DNA from: Anaerolineaceae bacterium
GTDB taxonomy: Bacteria > Chloroflexota > Anaerolineae > Aggregatilineales > Phototrophicaceae
DNA: 64,000 bases
Assembly (NCBI GenBank): GCA_002699585.1
Contig: PABP01000038.1
Span: forward strand, 434,001-498,000
Reading direction: 5' to 3'
Made by a program: the position numbers and the translations under genes. This document shows positions 26,214 through 63,900 of the stretch, piece by piece. The notes under the pieces were generated by a model, which had not been told where the DNA came from, searched no databases, and saw nothing but the letters and a program-made list of their open reading frames with translations. The first letter of the stretch is position 1. Each line of letters begins with the position of its first letter.

Positions 26214-27707
26214 CTATACTATATGTTCCGACAAATTATTCTGGCGGAAGTGCTGCACGCTCTCCTCACCACGCTGCGTCAACCTGACGATATTATTGGC
26301 AATTTCGATCAAATGGGAGGTACGCAAGCGGCGCAAAACGCGGGCCATCTTCTGCTGGGACCAGAGGAAATGCTGGTACAGGTCATCGGCTTGCAGCTCC
26401 ATAATCTCGGATTCGTCATGCTGATGATTAAAAATATGGCCGAGCACCACCTGATCGTCGAAGATACGGCGCTGGTTGGCGCGACGGGCGGCAACAGAGA
26501 TCAGCCCATATTTGGGTGAGAGCACCCAGGCGATGATGAAGAAGATGAAGATCATCAGAACCATCGACGCTGAAATAGATGAATCCCATTGTTCCAGCAA
26601 TTGCAGGCCGAACACACGGTTGATAAGCGCTAACACACTATCCATTTCAATGATGCCAAGGAAGTGCCCACGGGCTAAGTCGTATCCGAAGAAGGCCCCC
26701 AGGCTGCCAATCACGGCGCTGATGACAAGCATCACGGACAATCTGTCTGTCAGCAGGTAGGCGGCTGCGGGGGGAATGATGAAGAAGGCCACTACCAAAA
26801 TCGAACCTACGGCATCAAACGCACCGACTGCGACCAGGCTAACCAAGACCATCAAGGCATAGTGCAGCACACCCGGTCGCAAACCCAGTGCTTTGGCCAG
26901 AGCATCATCAAAGGAGGCTAGCTTGAGTTCCTTGTAAAACAGCACGACGAAGCCAACAGTGAGCAACATCATGATGGCGGTGACGGTGATCGACCGCGGC
27001 CAGAATACGAGAATGGGTTCAGTCTCAAGCAGGCCTGCGCTCCATGCCTGGGCCGGAGAATAGGTACCGCAATTGCCGCAGTACTCCTCAAAAACTGCGC
27101 CCTCATCACGGGGATAAATATTCTCTGCGGTGCAGTTCACACAGCGACGAGCGGTGATGGCGCGCTCGTCGTCGGGGGTAATGGTCACAGTCTCACAGTT
27201 CGATAGACAGTGGCTATTGGTATCCGCCCAGGCAACGCCAATTTCACCGACCATGACAGCATCTTCGTCCAGATGAACATCATCAACGAAGCGCGAAATG
27301 AGGATGATCGCTACAGCAAATAACAGCGGGAAAGCCAGACCCAGGGCTGCGTCTTGCTTGACAAGGCCGGATCGAAAGATCAATTCGGTGAGCACAACCG
27401 TCGCGACACCAGCAGCAGCAGCCCCGATAATCAACCAGGGTGACGACAGGTCCGGCTCCAGATTGAGCAGCGAGGTCATTACGATAAAGGCGACGACGAT
27501 ACCCAACAGCACGGTATGGCTGATGGCATCGCTGGTAAGCGACATGCCGCGCAGCAGCAGGAAGGTCCCCAGCAGCGCGCCGGAGATCGCAATCAGGCTG
27601 CCGATGATGGTGGCCGTCACCTGCGGGTCACGCAGGAAGGTGTTAATCTCTTCCCGACTGAAAAAGTTCAATAACAGGTCAATGACGACCATTTCGATAC
27701 CAAACAT
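26214..27707 (-). CDS. metal ABC transporter permease with Cys-rich insertion and C-terminal winged helix
   Basis: A 497-residue permease of the MntB/ZnuB/TroD family, forming the membrane channel for zinc or manganese. Core signatures are LLRGMSLTSDAISHTVLLGI, SGLVKQDAALGLAFPLLF and ELKLASFDDALAKALGLRPG. Two parts are unusual. Between helices, residues about 160-225 hold six cysteines in three pairs (C167/C171, C189/C192, C210/C213), like a small metal-binding ribbon. Residues about 405-497 form a winged-helix-like domain (QADDLYQHFLWSQQKMARVLRRL...LTQRGEE). The start overlaps the upstream permease stop (TGATG), so translation is coupled. Last gene of the operon. Confidence 0.9.
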   Translation of the reverse strand: MFGIEMVVIDLLLNFFSREEINTFLRDPQVTATIIGSLIAISGALLGTFLLLRGMSLTSDAISHTVLLGIVVAFIVMTSLLNLEPDLSSPWLIIGAAAAGVATVVLTELIFRSGLVKQDAALGLAFPLLFAVAIILISRFVDDVHLDEDAVMVGEIGVAWADTNSHCLSNCETVTITPDDERAITARRCVNCTAENIYPRDEGAVFEEYCGNCGTYSPAQAWSAGLLETEPILVFWPRSITVTAIMMLLTVGFVVLFYKELKLASFDDALAKALGLRPGVLHYALMVLVSLVAVGAFDAVGSILVVAFFIIPPAAAYLLTDRLSVMLVISAVIGSLGAFFGYDLARGHFLGIIEMDSVLALINRVFGLQLLEQWDSSISASMVLMIFIFFIIAWVLSPKYGLISVAARRANQRRIFDDQVVLGHIFNHQHDESEIMELQADDLYQHFLWSQQKMARVLRRLRTSHLIEIANNIVRLTQRGEESVQHFRQNNLSEHIV

Positions 27708-29026
27708 CAGCTTGTTTGTCCTTTCAGCAGCGTTTCCAGCTTGGTGACAGCGGGTACAGTCAACACATCCCCAATAGCACGCTGGCGATCTTCATTGACG
27801 GTAGGCAGGCCAAGTTCATCACCATAGGCGCGGTAGAGGTCCCATAGGCGCTGATTGTGTACATCTCTGGCGGCAGCCTCGGCACCTGTCGCAGTCAACA
27901 CCCAGGCCGCTCCGTCGCGCTCGATGTACCCCTGTCGCTGCAACTGAGCCAGGCCGACATCGACACTGGCACCACCAATACCAGCCATAAAGCTCGCCGG
28001 AACGGGATGGGTCGCGCCACCATGCGATGTCGCATACTTATACAGGTCACGTAAGGTGGTCAGAGCGGCAAAACGGCGGCGATCCTGGGATTGTTGCAGG
28101 AAGGTCCATGCCAAGCCGCGACCGGGTGCAAACAGAATCGAGATGGTCACGATCAAGAAGGCGACAACGATAATCATGGGGCCGGTGGGCACGTCGGCGT
28201 CAATGGCGCTGAGGGCGGCACCGATGCCCCCAGCAAAAGCGCCAAACATGGCTGATAAAATCACCATCTGGTCGAGCTTTTGCGTCCACTGGCGAGCCGC
28301 AATGCCAGGGGCGATCAGCAAGCCGACCATCAGGATGACACCTGCAAGCTGCAAACCGAGCACAATGGCAATCACGATCAGAGTCGAAAGCAGGGTATTG
28401 AAGAACGTCACTCTAAAGCCATTGGCCCCGGCGAATTCAGGGTCAAAGGTGACGAGCTTAAACTCTTTCCAGAAGACGATGATGACGATAAAGACGACCG
28501 TACTTACGGCTGCGATCAAGCGCACGTCACTTTCCACAATGGCGGCGGCCTGACCAAAGATGAAGGTATCCAGCCCCGCTTGGCTGGCATCCGGTACGGC
28601 CTGAATATAAGCTAGCAAAGCGATACCCGCCGCGAACCAGGCCGCCAGGGTGATGCCCATGGCTGTATCTTGTTTGATGCGGGTTGTACTCAACAGGCTA
28701 CGGATGAACATCACACCTAACCAGCTTGATATACCTGCACCGATGAGCAGTGCGCCCAGTTCACGGCCAGCCAACAAAAATGCAATACCGACGCCAGGGA
28801 GAGCCGCATGCGATAAGGCATCACCCATGAGGCTCTCGCGGCGGAGTACGGCAAAGCAGCCCAGAACGCCACTAATGATCCCCAGAATCGACGAGCCTAA
28901 GACAACGGTTCTGAGGGTATAGTCGTATTCGATATCCAGCCAAATCTGGCTTATTGGAATGAACACAGCCCCCAGGACAGCAATTGCAGCAATGAGCAGC
29001 CATACACGACGATCATCAACCGACAT
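27707..29026 (-). CDS. metal ABC transporter permease fused to a DtxR-like domain
   Basis: A 439-residue permease of the TroC/MntC family. Residues 1-305 are the membrane channel (RRESLMGDALSHAALPGVG, TTRIKQDTAMGITLAAWF, EFKLVTFDPEFAGANGF). Residues about 315-382 form a winged helix (LTTLRDLYKYA...VGLAQLQRQGYIERDGAAWVL) and 383-433 resemble the DtxR/MntR dimerisation helices (NQRLWDLYRAYGDELGLP). The arrangement recalls chlamydial YtgCR, where the fused repressor is cleaved off. Several classical metal ligands of DtxR appear replaced (His to Gln, His to Asn), so metal sensing by that domain is doubtful. Two bases separate it from the ATPase gene. Confidence 0.9.
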   Translation of the reverse strand: MSVDDRRVWLLIAAIAVLGAVFIPISQIWLDIEYDYTLRTVVLGSSILGIISGVLGCFAVLRRESLMGDALSHAALPGVGIAFLLAGRELGALLIGAGISSWLGVMFIRSLLSTTRIKQDTAMGITLAAWFAAGIALLAYIQAVPDASQAGLDTFIFGQAAAIVESDVRLIAAVSTVVFIVIIVFWKEFKLVTFDPEFAGANGFRVTFFNTLLSTLIVIAIVLGLQLAGVILMVGLLIAPGIAARQWTQKLDQMVILSAMFGAFAGGIGAALSAIDADVPTGPMIIVVAFLIVTISILFAPGRGLAWTFLQQSQDRRRFAALTTLRDLYKYATSHGGATHPVPASFMAGIGGASVDVGLAQLQRQGYIERDGAAWVLTATGAEAAARDVHNQRLWDLYRAYGDELGLPTVNEDRQRAIGDVLTVPAVTKLETLLKGQTS

Positions 29027-29028
29027 CG

Positions 29029-29814
29029 CTAATCCCCCGCCATATTTACAGGTGCACCGCCGTCGAGGAAGGCCACGCGCCCCCCATAGGTCTTGCGAAG
29101 ATTTTCCGAGGTGAAGGTAGCTTCAGTAGGGCCACTGGCGATGACCTCGACATTGAGCAGCGTCACCCAGTCGAAGTAGTCTTTTACGGTTTGCAAGTCA
29201 TGATGTACGACGAGGACCGTTTTGCCGCGTTCGCGCAGTTCGCGCAGGATGTTTACAATGGCGCGCTCGGTGACGGCATCGACGGCAGCGAAGGGTTCAT
29301 CCATGAAGTAAATCTGGGCATCCTGGACCAGAGCACGCGCCAGAAAGGTCCGCTGCTGTTGACCACCGGATAATTGGCTGATCTGACGATTGGCGAAGTC
29401 GGCCATGCTGACTTGATCGAGCGCATGCAGTGCCAACTCGCGCTCCTGGCGACCGGGTCGGCGGAACCAACCGAGTTTGCCATACAAGCCCATCGTAACG
29501 ACATCCAGCACGGACGTCGGGAAATCCCAATCGACGCTGCCACGCTGGGGCACATAACCCACAAGCGAACGAGCCTGTTCATAGGCCTGACCATAGAACA
29601 GCGCAGTCCCAGCAGCGCGGGGAATCAGATTGAGTACGGCTTTGATGAAGGTACTCTTGCCCGCCCCATTGGGGCCGACGATGGCCATCAGTACCCCTTC
29701 GGGCACGTTCAGGTCGATGTCCCAGATGGCGGGTTTGCTGTTGTAGGCGACGGTCAGGTCATCCACCAGTAAGGCTGGCGGCTTTTTATCAGTCGAATCA
29801 AGCTGTTTGGACAT
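29029..29814 (-). CDS. metal ABC transporter ATP-binding protein
   Basis: A 261-residue ABC ATPase of the ZnuC/MntB/TroB type that energises the two permeases encoded downstream. All motifs are intact: Walker A GPNGAGKST (about 50-58), Q-loop in LVGYVPQRGSVDWDFPTSV (the FPTSV/VDWDFP segment is typical of this family), signature LSGGQQQR, Walker B QIYFMDEPFAAVDA and the switch histidine in VLVVHHDL. A GGGAG Shine-Dalgarno precedes ATG 29814. It lies 44 bases after the binding-protein gene and two bases before the first permease gene. Confidence 0.95.
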   Translation of the reverse strand: MSKQLDSTDKKPPALLVDDLTVAYNSKPAIWDIDLNVPEGVLMAIVGPNGAGKSTFIKAVLNLIPRAAGTALFYGQAYEQARSLVGYVPQRGSVDWDFPTSVLDVVTMGLYGKLGWFRRPGRQERELALHALDQVSMADFANRQISQLSGGQQQRTFLARALVQDAQIYFMDEPFAAVDAVTERAIVNILRELRERGKTVLVVHHDLQTVKDYFDWVTLLNVEVIASGPTEATFTSENLRKTYGGRVAFLDGGAPVNMAGD

Positions 29815-29858: not shown

Positions 29859-30896
29859 TCAGGCATCACAGTTTACGTTGAGCAGGTCTTGAGGCGGTGT
29901 GATGTCGATGTCGTCGGGCCAGGAGGGAATAGTCAGGTCCACGCCTGCGCACTGATAAGATTGCAGAATCGTGTAGACATTTTCCGCAATCATGCCAATG
30001 TAAGTGCCACCAAACTTTCCTGGCTCGCCCATCGCATCGGAATACAGCTCGCGGACACCAATGCGCAAGGTCGCGCCTTCGTCTTCCACAGCGGCGATAA
30101 CCGCTTCGACCGTATCCGGCGGCAAGCTACTTTCGACAAAAACGACCGGAATGTCATTGTCGATGATGAAATTGACCACTTCTTGAATGTCACCGACACC
30201 CGCTTCATCCTGCGTGCTCAAGCCCTGGACGGAGACCATCTCCCAGCCGAACGCGCCACCAAAATACTGGAAGGCATCATGCGATGTGACCAGATAGCGC
30301 TGGCCTTCTGGAACCGTGCGCATGGCCTCGTTCGCCCATTCAAAGATGGCTTCAAGCTGTTGGGCATAGGCGGCGGCATTAGCCTGATAAAGATCAGCAT
30401 GGTCGGGGTCAAGGTCGGTCAGACGTTCTGCCAGATGCGTCACGGAAAGCTCCCAGTTGCGCGGATCAAACCAGAAATGCGGGTCATCGACGTTTTGCAG
30501 TTCTTCTGAGAGATCAAATCCGCCGATGACATAGCCCATATTCTTGACAGGCTGGCTGACCGCCACGATAACAAGACCCTGCTCCCCTAGCGCCTCAAAG
30601 ACCGTATCAAACTGCCCTTCCAGATGCAGGCCGCTGTACACGACCATATCGGCATGGCCCATTGCAGCGATGTCAGACTCGGTCGGTTGGTACAGATGGG
30701 GATCAACACCCGCACCCATCAAAGGTGTGACGACGACATGGTCAGCCCCCTGCGTCAGGAGCCTAGCAGCATCGCTGGCCTGCGTCGTCGTAGCAACGAT
30801 ATACAGCGAGTCACTCTGGGTTTCATCCTGAGCCAACGATAAACCCGTCATGCAGAACAAGAATGGTATAAGCAACAATAGCCTATGCAGTCGCAT
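29859..30896 (-). CDS. zinc/manganese ABC transporter substrate-binding protein (TroA/ZnuA family)
   Basis: A 345-residue cluster A-I metal-binding protein with signal peptide (LLLLIPFLFCMTGLSLAQ). Candidate metal ligands are H67 (VDPHLYQPTESD), H140 (DDPHFWFDP), H206 (TSHDAFQYF) and D287 (LYSDAMG). Three histidines plus one aspartate is the TroA/ZnuA pattern; manganese-specific PsaA-type proteins have glutamate at the third position. Zinc is therefore the first guess, with manganese possible. The long His-rich loop of many ZnuA proteins is missing. I start at ATG 30896, where the signal peptide begins, not at 30959, which would place the start upstream of it. First gene of the operon. Confidence 0.93.
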   Translation of the reverse strand: MRLHRLLLLIPFLFCMTGLSLAQDETQSDSLYIVATTTQASDAARLLTQGADHVVVTPLMGAGVDPHLYQPTESDIAAMGHADMVVYSGLHLEGQFDTVFEALGEQGLVIVAVSQPVKNMGYVIGGFDLSEELQNVDDPHFWFDPRNWELSVTHLAERLTDLDPDHADLYQANAAAYAQQLEAIFEWANEAMRTVPEGQRYLVTSHDAFQYFGGAFGWEMVSVQGLSTQDEAGVGDIQEVVNFIIDNDIPVVFVESSLPPDTVEAVIAAVEDEGATLRIGVRELYSDAMGEPGKFGGTYIGMIAENVYTILQSYQCAGVDLTIPSWPDDIDITPPQDLLNVNCDA

Positions 30897-30972
30897 AGAG
30901 GCTGTCCCCTCTTTAGTTAGAGTCATTGCAGTGAAAGATGCAAAAAGTCCAACGGCCAACGTATTGCCCTTA

Positions 30973-31001
30973 TTTTTAGCCTAGCCTAAGTTTTTTGTCA
31001 A
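30973..31001 (-). promoter_or_regulatory. promoter with overlapping DtxR/MntR-like operator
   Basis: On the minus strand a perfect TTGACA (30996-31001) is followed after 17 bases by TAAAAA (30973-30978). Overlapping the -10 and spacer is TTAGGCTAGGCTAA (30976-30989), palindromic at 12 of 14 positions and matching 13 of 19 bases of the DtxR consensus when extended. It lies about 80 bases upstream of the metal-binding protein start. A repressor bound here would block RNA polymerase when metal is sufficient. Confidence 0.6.
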
Positions 31002-31052
31002 GAGGATCAAAGTTAGAGTTCAAATAGCGTTTGACGGAAAATGGGAATAATC

Positions 31053-31083
31053 AAAAAAAAAAGCCCCATAAAGGGCCATTTTT
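31053..31083 (-). terminator. terminator of the orphan gene
   Basis: Stem GCCC/GGGC (31063-31066 with 31073-31076) flanked by A10 on the plus strand, giving a ten-base U tract for minus-strand transcripts. Also usable in the plus direction through ATTTTTATTT. Confidence 0.6.
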
Positions 31084-31089
31084 ATTTAT

Positions 31090-31190
31090 GTCGTCAGACT
31101 CTTTTGAACAAAGGGATGGGGAGAAAAGCGGCATTTTAAGCGTAATTGATTCTTTAGTCTGCCTTATTTTGCTGCCCAATTTGGTTTGAC
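31090..31190. repeat. direct repeat copy A flanking the orphan gene
   Basis: About 101 bases, from GTCGTCAGACTC to TGGTTTGAC. It shares the core CATTTTAAGCGTAATTGAT and CCTTATTTTGCTG with copy B at 31695-31800, in the same orientation. By eye the copies differ by about eight substitutions and a few short gaps. Confidence 0.9.
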
Positions 31191-31218
31191 GCCAAACACT
31201 ATGGACTCCGACTGAACG

Positions 31219-31611
31219 TTAATCATTCCGCATAATTTCCTTTGCGACTCCTATCCAATCATGATCAGTATCCTCAATAAACTGAATCAACTCAACTATT
31301 GATCCCTCTTTAACTAACTCGGCACTTTTATTTTTGATAAGTATATAGGTGTCATCAAAGCTCTGGAGCGTATCTGATACAATAACGATTGTGGGATAAG
31401 CTCCGCCGAATTTACCATAAGCCTTAATAACGTCAAATTCCATATCATTGACTATATGTCCTAAGTCTTCACGCAATCGCGAAATGACCCAATACATCAC
31501 TATAACTTCTATCTCACTGGTGTGTTTTAGGTCTCTACTTCGACGTTGTAAGTCTGTCTGAATCCCAACCACATCAAGGGTTACCTTATTTTTGCTCATT
31601 TTTCCCTTCAT
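31219..31611 (-). CDS. orphan A+T-rich gene of unknown function
   Basis: I do not recognise this 130-residue protein. It is soluble and alpha/beta in character: a helical segment VMYWVISRLREDLGHIVND, a strand pair around AYPTIVIVSDTLQSF, then acidic helices to the end (IQFIEDTDHDWIGVAKEIM). No catalytic motif stands out. Base composition is visibly more A+T-rich than neighbours, with Ile/Lys-rich coding, and the gene sits between two direct repeats of about 100 bases, so recent transfer is likely. ATG 31611 lacks a Shine-Dalgarno; ATG 31599 is close behind AAGGGA and may be the real start. A perfect minus-strand TATAAT lies at 31679-31684. Confidence 0.65.
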   Translation of the reverse strand: MKGKMSKNKVTLDVVGIQTDLQRRSRDLKHTSEIEVIVMYWVISRLREDLGHIVNDMEFDVIKAYGKFGGAYPTIVIVSDTLQSFDDTYILIKNKSAELVKEGSIVELIQFIEDTDHDWIGVAKEIMRND

Positions 31612-31678
31612 CTTTTCAGATCACTCTTACCTAGGCTAATCTCTCCAAGGAGAAATCCAATCCTCTTCAATACCTTAG

Positions 31679-31684
31679 ATTATA
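31679..31684 (-). promoter_or_regulatory. -10 element for the orphan gene
   Basis: Perfect TATAAT on the minus strand, about 68 bases before the start and 11 bases from repeat copy B. No good -35 at the right spacing is visible. Confidence 0.35.
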
Positions 31685-31694
31685 CTCAACGTAC

Positions 31695-31800
31695 GTTGTC
31701 AGACTCTTTTGGACGCAAAAAGGCATGGGAAGAAAAGCGACATTTTAAGCGTAATTGATCTCTTTAGTCCGCCTTATTTTGCTGTCCAATCTGGTTTGAC
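31695..31800. repeat. direct repeat copy B flanking the orphan gene
   Basis: About 106 bases, the same orientation as copy A, starting 605 bases further on. It begins GTTGTCAGACTC and ends TGGTTTGAC. Bases just outside the two copies do not match each other. Confidence 0.9.
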
Positions 31801-31833
31801 GACGTACAGCGAATTTAAGTGAAAGTGATCAGA

Positions 31834-34035
31834 TTAGAGCAAGCGAGCCGTGAGGGTCGCAATGGCGTAGAGGACAATCGCTACTATAAAAACGGTACTA
31901 AAACCAAAGCTGACAGCCAGGGTCAGGCTGGCGACCGACCCGACTACTGAAAATACGCCATTCACACTCCAGGCCAGTGCGACGAGGCGTGCATCCCGAT
32001 GGCCAGCAACGGTCAATCCAGCGGCGAAGGGCACGCCCATCGCAAGGCCTAGAGGCAAAAGCAGCAGAATCGTGGCCAGCGCACGAACAACAGGCGCGGC
32101 ACCGATCAGGGCGGGATTGACGAGCGGCCACACAATTTGCCAAGCAATCAGCACCAAAACAACCAGTCCAGCAGGCCATAAGCTAAGGCGCTCCAATGTA
32201 GGCGCTAAGCGACGGTAGAGCATGCTTCCCAGTCCGCCGCCCACCAGCAGCGTGGCAATCACCAGCGTGACGGAAAACGTCGGATGGCCGATGAGCAAGC
32301 GAATTTTCTGGATGAGGGCGACTTCAATCATCATGAAGCCAGCACCCAAAGCGGCGAAGTATAGCGTACTAGCTGCCAACCGAGGCAAGCGTGCTTTCCA
32401 CTGGAATGAGACAAGGAGCAAGAGCAAAGCGATGACAATCACGCCCAGGGCCACAGCGAGGTTAGCTAAATCCTGCGGAAGGCCGCGCTCGAACTGGTAG
32501 AAGAAAGGGCGATCATCGGTTGGTGGCGAGAGGTCCACCGGGGAAATGTCGATGACATCAGCATAGGTATTGACGCCGGACACGACCGCATCCAGCGGCG
32601 GATCAGCCTGGATACCGGGCAAGAATAGAGTCGCAAAGCCGATGCGCTGGGCAGTACGGCCAATAGCGATGACTTCTTCCTCAGTGAAGGGCGCGTTTTT
32701 GACGAGCAACAAAGGCGTTGGCGGTGATGTTGACGGTGCCAGCAAGGCAATCACATGGTCGAGCGCTTCGGCATCGGATAGGTTTTGCTGAGATTTGAGG
32801 GCTTCAATGGCCAGCGACAACGTGCGCGACATGGTCATTTCGTCGTAGAGCTTGATGCCCAGGTAGCCATCGTCACTCAAATGCGATAGGTATTCTTCAA
32901 AGGCCTCTTGAGTGAAAACGGCATTTTCCGTCATGGCATATCCGGCGCGTTCGGCGGTCAAAGTCACGACCTGGGCCAGATAAATCATGTCGTAGGTGGT
33001 ATCTTCCCGGCGCAGCACACTGCGACCCTCATCGACGACCACGCGCACGCCGGGTTGATTGTAAATATCGCCGCTGTACTCAGCATTGTCATTAACCAGC
33101 GCCACCGCCTGCGGATTGACCTCGACCGCTGTCACGGATTCCGCGCCCGCTTGCAGCGCAAACCATACATCGAGGCCGCCACCGGAGCCAATGGTAAAGA
33201 CGTTTTGCGGCTGGGCGGTCACGAAGGCGAAAAGGCCGATGTCCTGAATGAGATGTTCGTTATCTTGTGCCGGGGGAATGATGGATGCAGCCCCCCCATC
33301 GACATAAATGCGCCATGACCCCTCAGCGGGTTCGACAAGATCGGTACGGGCAAATGAATCCCAGCGCGTTTCCAGAATTTGGCCGCCATCGGCTAAAGGC
33401 TCGGTAATGGTCTTGAAGGACGAACTGAGTGCCGCCATATCGACAGTCAGCCAATTTGCCGTCAGGTTGCCACCCCAGACAAGGATTCCCAACAGCAGGC
33501 CGACCACTGCCAGCCCTATAGGACGGTAGACCATTGCAGCCAACATGAACAGCATCACACAGAAAAGAATGGCGTTGAGCGCGCCCATCGCGTCCAGCAG
33601 TGGGATGATGAGTATGGTTGCGATACCAGCACCGATTAAATCGGCAGCGTATAGGGTGCGGCTGTCATCGGACAGGGCGCTAAACAGAGTCGACAGCGAG
33701 AGGCCAATGAATATATAGGGCAATGCCAGGAAAATAGCGGCCAACCACAGCGGCACCTGGGTTGAGGCAGTCCACACACTGGCGACACCCACGAACAAGG
33801 CGCTGATCCCGGTCAGGACGATGTAAAGGGATACGCGACTACTCTGGCGTAAAGCCGACCACGCCGCAGCCAATCCAGCGCCAATGCCCATGCCGAGCAC
33901 CGCCAGCGACAGCACCGCAAACACAATCGGCGGCGCATACAGGGCGGAAAGCAAGCGCGTCAGGGTGATCTCGAAGAGCATGCCTGCCGCAGACAGAGCG
34001 GCAATGGTCAGGGAATAGCGGCGCAATTGGGTCAT
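31834..34035 (-). CDS. fused polytopic membrane / spermidine-synthase-like methyltransferase-fold protein
   Basis: A 733-residue protein with an N-terminal set of about six membrane helices (to about 190), a soluble Rossmann domain (about 215-470) and a C-terminal set of about six helices. The soluble part has a nucleotide-binding site like spermidine synthase: VFTIGSGGGLDVWFALQAGA and VTAVEVNPQAV. The aspartate-rich active-site motif of true spermidine synthases (YD-I--D--DP) is replaced by YDMIYLAQVVTLT, so polyamine synthesis is unlikely. Such fusions are common and uncharacterised. It starts 28 bases after the DppC-like gene on the same strand and may be co-transcribed. Confidence 0.85.
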   Translation of the reverse strand: MTQLRRYSLTIAALSAAGMLFEITLTRLLSALYAPPIVFAVLSLAVLGMGIGAGLAAAWSALRQSSRVSLYIVLTGISALFVGVASVWTASTQVPLWLAAIFLALPYIFIGLSLSTLFSALSDDSRTLYAADLIGAGIATILIIPLLDAMGALNAILFCVMLFMLAAMVYRPIGLAVVGLLLGILVWGGNLTANWLTVDMAALSSSFKTITEPLADGGQILETRWDSFARTDLVEPAEGSWRIYVDGGAASIIPPAQDNEHLIQDIGLFAFVTAQPQNVFTIGSGGGLDVWFALQAGAESVTAVEVNPQAVALVNDNAEYSGDIYNQPGVRVVVDEGRSVLRREDTTYDMIYLAQVVTLTAERAGYAMTENAVFTQEAFEEYLSHLSDDGYLGIKLYDEMTMSRTLSLAIEALKSQQNLSDAEALDHVIALLAPSTSPPTPLLLVKNAPFTEEEVIAIGRTAQRIGFATLFLPGIQADPPLDAVVSGVNTYADVIDISPVDLSPPTDDRPFFYQFERGLPQDLANLAVALGVIVIALLLLLVSFQWKARLPRLAASTLYFAALGAGFMMIEVALIQKIRLLIGHPTFSVTLVIATLLVGGGLGSMLYRRLAPTLERLSLWPAGLVVLVLIAWQIVWPLVNPALIGAAPVVRALATILLLLPLGLAMGVPFAAGLTVAGHRDARLVALAWSVNGVFSVVGSVASLTLAVSFGFSTVFIVAIVLYAIATLTARLL

Positions 34036-60990: not shown

Positions 60991-63900
60991 GTGTTCCGAT
61001 TGACATTGAAACGCATTCTAAAAGATTGGCGGCTGGTCGGGGTGCTGCTGCTGACCATGTCACTTGCAGCAGGATTTTTGGCATTCGGGCCGATGTATGT
61101 GCGTATGATCGCCGCTGCCAGCTTGCAACAGCGCGTCTCGACCGAGATTGAGCGCACGTTCCAGCTTACGCTGCGCAACCAGACCGTGCTCGACCGCGAT
61201 TTTGTCGATAACACAGTCGATACGACATTGGGCGCTTATGCTGGCGAGATGCGTCAGTTTTACGCCGCCCAACCCTGGATTTGCGCTTCGCCACGCGGCT
61301 GCTATCGACCGTATGCTTTCAGTGAGTTTGACAGCCTGTTTGCACTCAAAGAGGGTCGTTTGCCGAGTAACACGCCGCAAAATGGCATCGATGTGGAAGC
61401 AGTGGTTCTGCCGCGCATGACTGAAATGGACCGCGCCTATATCGGGCAGCAATTCATCCTGGGTGAGGACAGCGATACCGCCATTACTGTCGAGGTCGTG
61501 GGGATTGTGGACGCCCTATTGCCAGAAACAGCCCCCTATTGGGAAGGCATGACGATCTTCGATGTGGTGAACACGCCAGTCGGCGATAACACGCGCCCGG
61601 ATGTCAGCTTCATCGTCAGCGAAGATGCCTATCTGGAGCACGTCACAGTCGCCGTGACGGACATCGACCGAATTGTGATGTGGCGCGTCATGCTGAACCG
61701 GGAGTGGTTCACAGCGGCGCGGGCTGATGATTTCCTGATGGCGTATCACGATTTTTCCCAGGCAATGCGCCTGGAAGCACCGAATATCAACCTGAACACA
61801 GGCGTGGTTGACCTGCTGGAATCGTTCCAGCGCAGCGTTGAAGAAGCCCAAGCCCCGGTGATTTTGCTGTCATTCCTAATATTCGCGCTGATGCTGTACA
61901 ACTGCATCACCATTGCCGCCCTGCTAATGGAACAGCGCCAGGAAGAATGGATCATGTTTAGCAGCCGGGGCAGCAGCACGCTGCAACTGGTCCAGATGCA
62001 GGTCATCATCAACCTGCTTTTAGCGATTGCGGCGCTAGTCGGCGGGCTAGTGATTGCCTGGTTAACGCTGCTGATCCTGGCAACTGTGGGTCCACAAGCA
62101 GATGTGCTTGGCATGCCAGAAATCAGCTTGATCCAGATGGATACATTTGCACTGCTAGCGATTGCCCTGGTGCTGATCGTCATTGGCCTGACGATACCGA
62201 CCTATGTCGCAGCAACACGCAGCCTAGCCGTTCTCAAGCAAGCGATGGCCCGTCCGCCGCAGACACCGATCTGGGCACGCTTTGGCCTGGACTTTGGCTT
62301 GATTGCCCTCGGCCTGATTTTCGTCGTGCGGCTGGTTTCCCAGGTGGCGAATGTGCCCTTAGAAACGATCATCAGCCAGCCGGAGCAACTGCTGGACGTG
62401 CTGACATCCCAGGATTTTGGGGCACAACTCAACGACCCGTTCACGTTGGCGGCCCCGGCCCTGCTCATCATGGGCAGCGCCCTGTTATGGATGCGCCTAT
62501 TTCCGCTGATCGTCAGTGGCATTGGGCGATTAACTGAGGTGCGCAACGGGCTGACAAGTCGATTGGCGTTCTGGAATGTGGCGCGTGATCCGGCGCATTA
62601 TGCGCAGTTGGTGCTGCTGCTGATCATCACGCTATCGTTGGGAACCGCTTCTATTTTGCTAGATGCTGCCCGCCAGGAAAACAGCCGTTCGGTGGCTGTG
62701 GCGCAGGTCGGGGCGGATGCGGCTATCGATGTCATCCCTGCGGAATATGACGACAGCTTCGACCCGATGACGCTGCCCGGTGTTGAGGCCGCTAGCGATA
62801 TGATGGTTGTTCCGGTCAATGCGGCGCGTGAGATCACGCTGTTGGGGGTTGATCCCGCCGAGCTGGACGCCTTCCCGGATTTAGCCACGCCCTTAAACGT
62901 ACTGCATGATATCGCCGCGCCGGACCTGGGTGGCTTACAGGTCTCAGAAGAAGCACAGACGATTGCGCTGGACATCATGAGCCTACCGGATGAAAGCGCC
63001 GAAACATCGACGACTATCGCTGCCTTTGTTGATCTGATTGATACACGCGGGCTGTTTCTCAGCATGGAACTGGTACCACAGAGCCGTACATCACCCGGCA
63101 CATTCAGCACATACCAGACCAACCCCCTGCCCTGTGTCGGGCCGTGGACGCTGCTGGGCATCCGGCTAACGGCAGAGCAAGCGGGTAACGATGATTTTGT
63201 TCATACGGTAATCATGGATGCGTTAGTTGCAGGTGGCACATCGCAGCAATTGGCTAGTTTCGATGCCGATACCCTGGATGATTGGCGTTGGGAACGCGGT
63301 AGCGATCAGATGATCGAAAACGCCTCACTGATACCGGAAACGGAACGCTATACTCAAGGCGATGGCGCGCTGCTGGTCCGCTACAGCGTAGAAACCTACG
63401 GCCCACGTATGACACAACCGGCCCTGGTCTATCGCCCGGTGGTTGAGCAACCCATGCCAGTGCTGATTTCCCCGGCCTTTGCGGAAGCCTATGGTACACG
63501 CAGCAGCTTACGGCGTCCGCTGGATGTGGGGGATACGATCACGACCGAATTGATTATCCAGGAAGGGTTCCAGACGGCCTACATCAGCAATCGCTCGATT
63601 CCGTCGCGGACATTGAACATGCGCTATACGGTCGCGGGCATCATTCCAGAGATGCCCATGTTTGAGCCTGATGCGCTGTATCTGGTGACGACAACGGAGT
63701 GGTTGCAACTGACGCTCAACCAGGATGCGAGCCTGGGAGAGTTCCATGAGCCGAACCGCACACTGCTCAAACTCAACGGCGAAAGGCCATCAAGCGACTT
63801 CTATACTGCGACAGAGACCATCCCTGGCTTGCTGAAGGCGACTGCCGCCTGGGACATCTACCAGCAACTATTGCGTGACCCGCTGACGAATGCCATCACG

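Follow-up and report, generated by a model that had tools for sequence, protein, structure and literature searches.

The locus lies within a 64-kb stretch of DNA (the whole of the sequence analysed, henceforth the window). On the minus strand, a spermidine-synthase-like gene (31834-34035) is followed after 30 nt, counted from its stop codon, by one copy of a repeat (copy 2) and, 83 nt later, by a short passenger gene; 25 nt past the stop codon of the latter begins the other copy (copy 1), which is followed by a terminator-like hairpin (31077-31062) and a znuA-type metal-binding gene (Pfam ZnuA, E 4.5e-70). The spermidine-synthase-like gene encodes a 733-aa protein with a weak spermidine-synthase-like/methyltransferase domain and, at 57.3% GC, has the composition of the host. 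The features of the interval are as follows (terminal inverted repeats are abbreviated as TIRs).

31062..31077, minus strand: intrinsic-terminator-like hairpin with a T tract, just past copy 1 (terminator scan)
31090..31193, no strand assigned: copy 1, a 104-bp diverged direct repeat and eroded palindrome with ends GTCGTCAGAC ... GTTTGACGCC (alignment)
31219..31611, minus strand: A+T-rich passenger gene of 130 aa (open reading frame; homologues in 3/150 relatives)
31691..31694, no strand assigned: GTAC immediately left of copy 2, may be a 4-bp target-site duplication (sequence)
31695..31803, no strand assigned: copy 2, a 109-bp imperfect palindrome with TIRs GTTGTCAGAC ... GTTTGACGAC (alignment and fold)
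31804..31807, no strand assigned: GTAC, right flank of copy 2 (sequence)

A preliminary description of the window had proposed direct repeats of about 100 bp in a single orientation, and local alignment bore this out: copy 1 (31087-31191) and copy 2 (31692-31801) align in the same orientation with 87% identity over 110 columns, differing by 9 substitutions in 105 aligned columns, a 4-nt gap and a 1-nt gap, and the longest exact run common to both is 19 nt. When the boundaries are set by the TIRs, the copies span 31090-31193 (104 bp) and 31695-31803 (109 bp), close to where the repeats had been placed before; they lie 605 bp apart and the whole unit measures 714 bp. The pair is the top self-match of the window (self-BLAST, E 1.4e-30; runner-up E 0.023) and was recovered by BLAST in the whole genome (E 1.4e-31), and is thus not a chance resemblance. 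Given that the copies are merely 87% identical, we also ruled out an assembly artefact or duplication.

The preliminary description overlooked that the repeat is palindromic and ends in terminal inverted repeats of ~10 bp. Read inward, the four ends (GTTGTCAGAC and GTCGTCAAAC in copy 2, GTCGTCAGAC and GGCGTCAAAC in copy 1) each differ by at most one mismatch from a single consensus (GTCGTCARAC, ~10 bp), and the paired TIRs are alike at 8 of 10 positions in either copy. Compared with its own reverse complement, copy 2 scores 74 (maximum of 200 shuffles: 50), which makes it the most palindromic 130-mer among 6388 windows, with the next separate stretch scoring 58; its DNA fold has a z-score of -3.8, and 0/200 shuffles were as good. 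Copy 1, taken alone, is no better a palindrome than shuffled sequence: its self-complementarity score of 30 is below the shuffle 95th percentile of 36, and its fold (z -0.4) was equalled by 67/200 shuffles. The stretch starting at 31011, in which the terminator hairpin is joined by a portion of copy 1, reaches a score of 54. Specifically, copy 1 keeps 30 of the 38 pairs of copy 2 (4 of them altered on one side) and has lost 8, five by deletion and three by substitution, with none changed on both sides.

This pattern of loss bears on the possibility that the palindromes are a functional 3′ RNA element, i.e., hairpins that stabilise or end transcripts after the two neighbouring minus-strand genes. 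The similar spacing past both stop codons (30 and 25 nt) would suit such a role, as would the predicted RNA fold of copy 2 (-41.9 kcal/mol on the plus strand and -32.5 kcal/mol on the minus strand, both without a shuffle control). Yet pairing in copy 1 was lost with no two-sided changes, no T tract follows either copy, a separate terminator-like hairpin comes after copy 1, no Rfam family scored above its gathering score and the repeat was not found in relatives, so that we regard an RNA role as improbable. Six Rfam matches in 30800-31900 (E 1.4-4.4) all fell far below their gathering scores and were rejected as evidence of a riboswitch or other known RNA. Terminator-like sites number 3 in 30700-32000, compared with 1.1 expected from shuffles, and the hairpin at 31062..31077 may end the passenger-gene transcript.

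The flanking sequences, read directly, are GTAC/GTAC for copy 2, TTAT/AAAC for copy 1 and TTAT/GTAC for the whole unit; neither copy 1 nor the 714-bp unit is accordingly flanked by a target-site duplication, which in the case of the unit may have eroded. As GTAC is self-complementary, its presence on both sides of copy 2 may merely extend the palindrome instead of marking a target duplication. The similarity of the copies continues for 3 nt beyond their left ends (TAC vs TAT), which is a point in favour of a history without any cassette, whereby a single intergenic palindrome was copied to the far side when a foreign gene was inserted or repaired in, through illegitimate or template-switch recombination at the hairpin. 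Long hairpins are known sites of breakage and slippage, and such an event would also yield what is seen here, namely two copies only, in the same orientation and at a single locus. Duplication in place nonetheless explains the GTAC flanks of copy 2 and the composition of the gene less simply than import does, and we consider it unlikely, albeit deserving of serious attention.

We then turn to the gene between the repeats, for which the preliminary description had claimed 130 residues and a differing base composition. Both are confirmed: the passenger gene has 37.7% GC (GC3 36.6%) in a window of 53.9% GC, and its three neighbours have a GC3 of 62-67%. The adjoining noncoding DNA is likewise A+T-rich, meaning that the dip in composition is partly unspecific to the gene. 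Its earlier label of orphan holds in the sense that the protein had no match in Pfam, NCBIfam, PHROG or PADLOC, but it is not a strict orphan since 3/150 relatives, all three in the same family, carry distant homologues (E 1.7e-9 to 2.1e-4). A profile search found the gene in the same genomes as before (i.e., 4/98 family genomes, own included), leaving it absent from 94/98 family genomes and from the same-genus genome G001. In a sample of the class, a homologue was present in 1/396 genomes, namely the own genome only, although this sample may not contain the three homologue-bearing genomes. Searches of genome contigs and viral contigs for relatives of the protein returned none.

Within the aligned domain of the homologues the W, YP and DW positions are invariant, which supports a real protein, and the four homologous genes are all A+T-rich for their loci (39-44% vs 47-56% GC). 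Single-sequence structure prediction of the passenger protein gave a mean pLDDT of 41, and a profile search of solved structures gave a single match with E 0.1. One of the homologous loci (L004, 215-1950) holds two homologues in tandem, with an extra C-terminal region and beside a protein-kinase-like ORF (both judged by eye); neither has a Pfam family, and the one at 215-1009 had weak matches to two PHROGs without an assigned function (E 0.0085 and 0.023). Another homologue had one PHROG match, with E 0.4.

To establish the distribution of the repeat, we searched the genome and its relatives, as the preliminary description had recommended. BLAST of the own genome (6.7 Mb, 42 contigs, 96% complete) found two copies only, at one locus; relaxing the threshold up to E 10 added six further matches (E 1.5-5.2) of 15-26 bases each. 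Searching with a covariance model built from both copies returned the copies themselves and copy 2 on its reverse strand (E 5.5), and nothing else. The repeat was found in none of the 150 relatives, the own genome alone matching among 151, both by BLAST and by the covariance model with stricter filters. A pattern describing the TIR pair matched both copies and one place each in three relatives (G059, G062 and G066); a reversed-pattern control also gave three matches, and we dismissed the three places as equal to that control, with palindrome scores of 28-46 (by eye, the one in G059 coincides in part with a hairpin of the ordinary kind that has a T tract). The 19-base core of the repeat had no exact match in species genomes or in viral contigs (a search from which own-genome records may be left out), and two further repeat patterns had no match in viral contigs. 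Matches to plasmid DNA (three records) and phage DNA (two records) were short and had E-values no better than 0.02; we attribute these to chance, along with two matches to phage proteins at E 0.8. No protein from the region matched the plasmid collection.

The narrow distribution makes it improbable that two members of a family of miniature inverted-repeat transposable elements (MITEs) inserted independently at the two flanks of a resident gene unrelated to them. The MITE-like anatomy and the A+T-rich intergenic setting, which is the usual habitat of MITEs according to passages of PMC10969869 and PMC5444012, are what such insertions would produce. Against this, the copies lie 605 bp apart in one orientation and no other copy was found in 6.7 Mb, and we place little weight on this explanation.

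The three loci carrying homologues of the gene (2.8-3.3 kb each) showed no comparable palindrome, their best scores being 52, 52 and 54 where the background of the window goes up to 58, and they contained no gapless inverted repeats of 24 nt or longer. Of these tests, palindrome scoring is the better one because the gapless tool, when run with a 16-nt limit, also missed copy 2. The palindrome bracket is therefore not a constant companion of the gene. Homologues of znuA were present in 28/61 genomes (own included), and 0/28 znuA loci, from 27 relatives, had a match to the spermidine-synthase-like protein (tblastn at 1e-3, up to 1.5 kb either side); in G001, the znuA gene and the best match to that protein are ~2.2 Mb apart by their coordinates. 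Since no relative shares the same junction, no empty site can be read in the compared genomes. The preliminary description had named two outcomes that would count against a mobile cassette. One was the same gene at the same locus in relatives without repeats, which was not seen, as none of the 28 loci had the neighbouring gene. The other was a repeat occurring nowhere else and fixed in all strains, of which the first half is what the searches used here found.

No transposase, integrase or recombinase family was detected in 40 ORFs of the window (Pfam, E 1e-4; one set at E 1), in agreement with the earlier statement that the window holds no recombinase. Four of these 40 ORFs, the passenger gene among them, matched no family. 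Outside the scan were small or overlapping ORFs, two permease-like ORFs (34063 and 34970), the ATPase ORF at 29029 and the open ORF at 60991. Nor did the searches made here identify an autonomous partner. Movement by homologous recombination between the repeats, which had also been proposed, is unlikely because the copies share an exact match of at most 19 nt.

Because the locus is laid out like an integron cassette, we tested whether the palindromes could be attC-like sites of a remnant cassette array, with the gene as the cassette and the integrase since lost (a CALIN). AAC and GTT are the near-invariant letters of the attC core. In the passages describing them, attC sites measure 57-141 bp and carry an RYYYAAC/GTTRRRY core with crossover between G and TT (PMC3053210, PMC3518468), integrase-less clusters count as CALIN from two attC sites up (PMC9024848) and integrons have been detected in Chloroflexota (PMC9668308); a literature search combining integron, attC, CALIN and Chloroflexi found no paper. 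In size and direct orientation the two copies fit such sites, with copy 2 palindromic and copy 1 eroded, and each follows a stop codon by 25-30 nt with a small, foreign-looking gene in between. Copy 2 moreover shows an outer box of 7 bp, a spacer that is unpaired and an inner helix of 12 pairs in which one base is bulged, and its plus-strand crossover core, GTTTGAC, matches GTTRRRY at 6/7 positions with GTT intact.

The core itself argues against attC. The outer boxes read GTCAGAC/GTTTGAC on the plus strand and GTCAAAC/GTCTGAC on the minus strand, so that in either orientation, and in both copies, one triplet is wrong (AAC of RYYYAAC or GTT of GTTRRRY, depending on orientation), and the RYYYAAC ... 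GTTRRRY core is complete in neither. The orientation with GTT intact (plus) is opposite to the passenger gene; in copy 1 the inner helix is missing from the plus strand (3 pairs) and has 8 pairs on the minus strand; and the preceding gene, at 2.2 kb and 57.3% GC with host composition, is unlike a cassette. Scans for attC picked up neither copy, which is the same test over again because they demanded the triplets. Our home-made attC scanner gave 17 matches in the 64-kb window, presumed to be chance; it presupposes AAC/GTT, and the reference-integron sites that it lists are no independent measure of core conservation.

The search for integron integrases matched 4/151 genomes, of which two passed the curated cut-off, one in the same class (G147) and one in the same order (G123), which lends a remnant array some plausibility. 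In the own genome no integron integrase was found at 1e-20 (13/21 candidates scored), although a CALIN does not require one, and a simple scan found no attC beside the relatives' integrases (L078/L079; 12 kb in G147). Taken together, we think it rather improbable that the locus is a remnant integron array. A variant, which we rate as more doubtful still and close to speculation, is that the palindromes are sites of an undescribed cassette system with an attC-shaped copy 2 and a GTCAGAC/GTTTGAC core, whose recombinase would once have stacked single genes behind host genes in the lineage of this bacterium. As a separate observation, the two integrase matches above the cut-off in the same-class relative (G147:C44; L078 138-1079 and 9457-10038) comprise one with an in-frame stop and another that is partial.

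What the locus contains, then, is two diverged direct repeats with shared inverted termini of ~10 bp, a gene of odd composition between them and GTAC on both sides of copy 2. The explanation that we prefer, with confidence somewhat short of even, is that a laterally acquired accessory gene was bracketed by two MITE-like elements in the same orientation, forming a composite, non-autonomous cassette of the TIME or mobile-insertion-cassette kind (see below) that has since decayed. Under this explanation, a transposase supplied in trans, here or more likely in an earlier host, would have acted on the TIRs and moved the element; two copies flanking the gene would have let the whole segment travel as a unit, which would have come to rest with the spermidine-synthase-like gene on one side and the metal-uptake operon on the other and then decayed in place. 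We thus infer that the repeats were once transposable, that the gene is foreign, that gene and repeats came as one unit and that this unit is immobile today. That no further copy was found suggests a joint arrival of the two rather than hopping within the genome. Import is supported by the unusual composition of the gene, by its absence from G001 and 94/98 family genomes, and by homologues that are A+T-rich too.

A MITE origin of the repeats is consistent with their length, A+T-richness, short TIRs and intergenic place, which fit the descriptions of prokaryotic MITEs in passages of PMC10969869 and PMC5444012. The former gives these elements as <500 bp and A+T-rich, with TIRs of about 4-30 bp and direct repeats that fade with age, and reports one MITE at 1 to 22 copies. 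Both copies here are non-coding and lie within these size and TIR ranges. Dispersed copies in the genome or in relatives, which also characterise MITEs, were not found (two copies at one locus; 0/150 relatives), nor was the duplication around the unit that a composite transposon would have (TTAT left of 31090, GTAC right of 31803). Several observations run counter to the imported cassette: a transposing element usually leaves more copies than the two found, although the assembly may lack 4% of the genome; target-site duplications are wanting at copy 1 and around the 714-bp unit, and copy 1 is a poor palindrome; the loci of the homologues showed no comparable palindrome; and both copies lie 25-30 nt 3′ of a stop codon, a spacing not predicted by transposition. 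The repeat-bounded cassette of the preliminary description remains the best reading and is strengthened by the palindrome and TIRs, but its present mobility is unsupported given that the searches found no further copies and no partner enzyme and that neither copy 1 nor the unit has a duplication.

Several known systems resemble parts of this arrangement. ERIC and similar elements are imperfect, intergenic palindromes of roughly 100 bp. ERIC is given at 30 to 711 copies per genome in a passage of PMC10969869, as opposed to the two copies seen here. Also close in organisation are the TIMEs (Tn3-derived inverted-repeat miniature elements), for which it is demonstrated that MITE pairs carry DNA between them (PMC4133298): as at this locus, a pair of transposase-less miniature elements encloses other DNA. 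They differ in having 38-bp Tn3-type ends, target duplications of 5 or 6 bp and demonstrated transposition (same source), whereas this locus has unassigned ends of ~10 bp and a possible 4-bp duplication at one copy only, and is known from its sequence. Mobile insertion cassettes, as described in part of PMC5444012, are likewise non-autonomous and hold a passenger gene between inverted ends, and the MITE of the pAC3 cassette (75-bp core, 17-bp TIRs, 4-bp direct repeats; same source) is about the size of copy 2; by contrast, the gene studied here is bracketed by two whole palindromes in direct orientation. An Aeromonas C3 plasmid of the size of pAC3 is in the plasmid collection and is not among the three records that matched the region.

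The MITE-flanked class 1 integrons of Acinetobacter, covered in passages of PMC10969869, also have two MITE copies flanking a transported segment; those MITEs are described as identical and occur in several strains, while the present copies are 87% identical and were found at one locus. Integron cassettes and CALIN, as far as the cited passages of PMC3053210, PMC3518468 and PMC9024848 describe them, share with this locus a small, foreign-looking gene between same-orientation sites that are as long as attC and come after stop codons. They are unlike it in that both copies here have a wrong core triplet and the genome gave no integron integrase in the search.

The structure is probably the fossil of an already known kind of non-autonomous mobile cassette. 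If the cassette reading is true, the locus is a further, decayed case in which pairs of palindromes transported a small gene, involving a repeat that these searches found nowhere else, and it connects lateral transfer with a protein family of narrow distribution. A two-copy, single-locus and apparently immobile structure leaves the general picture unchanged; a second genome with the same palindromes around another gene would raise its significance sharply.

The neighbouring metal-uptake genes yielded some side observations. The ABC-3 metal permease at 27707-29026 has a C-terminal extension that resembles a fused DtxR-type winged-helix domain (by eye, no Pfam match), and a second ABC-3 permease at 26214-27707 has an insert with repeated Cys-x-x-Cys that is zinc-ribbon-like (by eye), together with a C-terminal extension. 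Upstream of the znuA-type gene, at 30976-30989, lies the palindrome-like TTAGGCTAGGCTAA, which we take to resemble an operator of the DtxR/MntR family. A similar stretch, AGTTAGCCTAAAAATAAG, is found in the same-genus genome upstream of its own znuA (L008, around 1402-1420).
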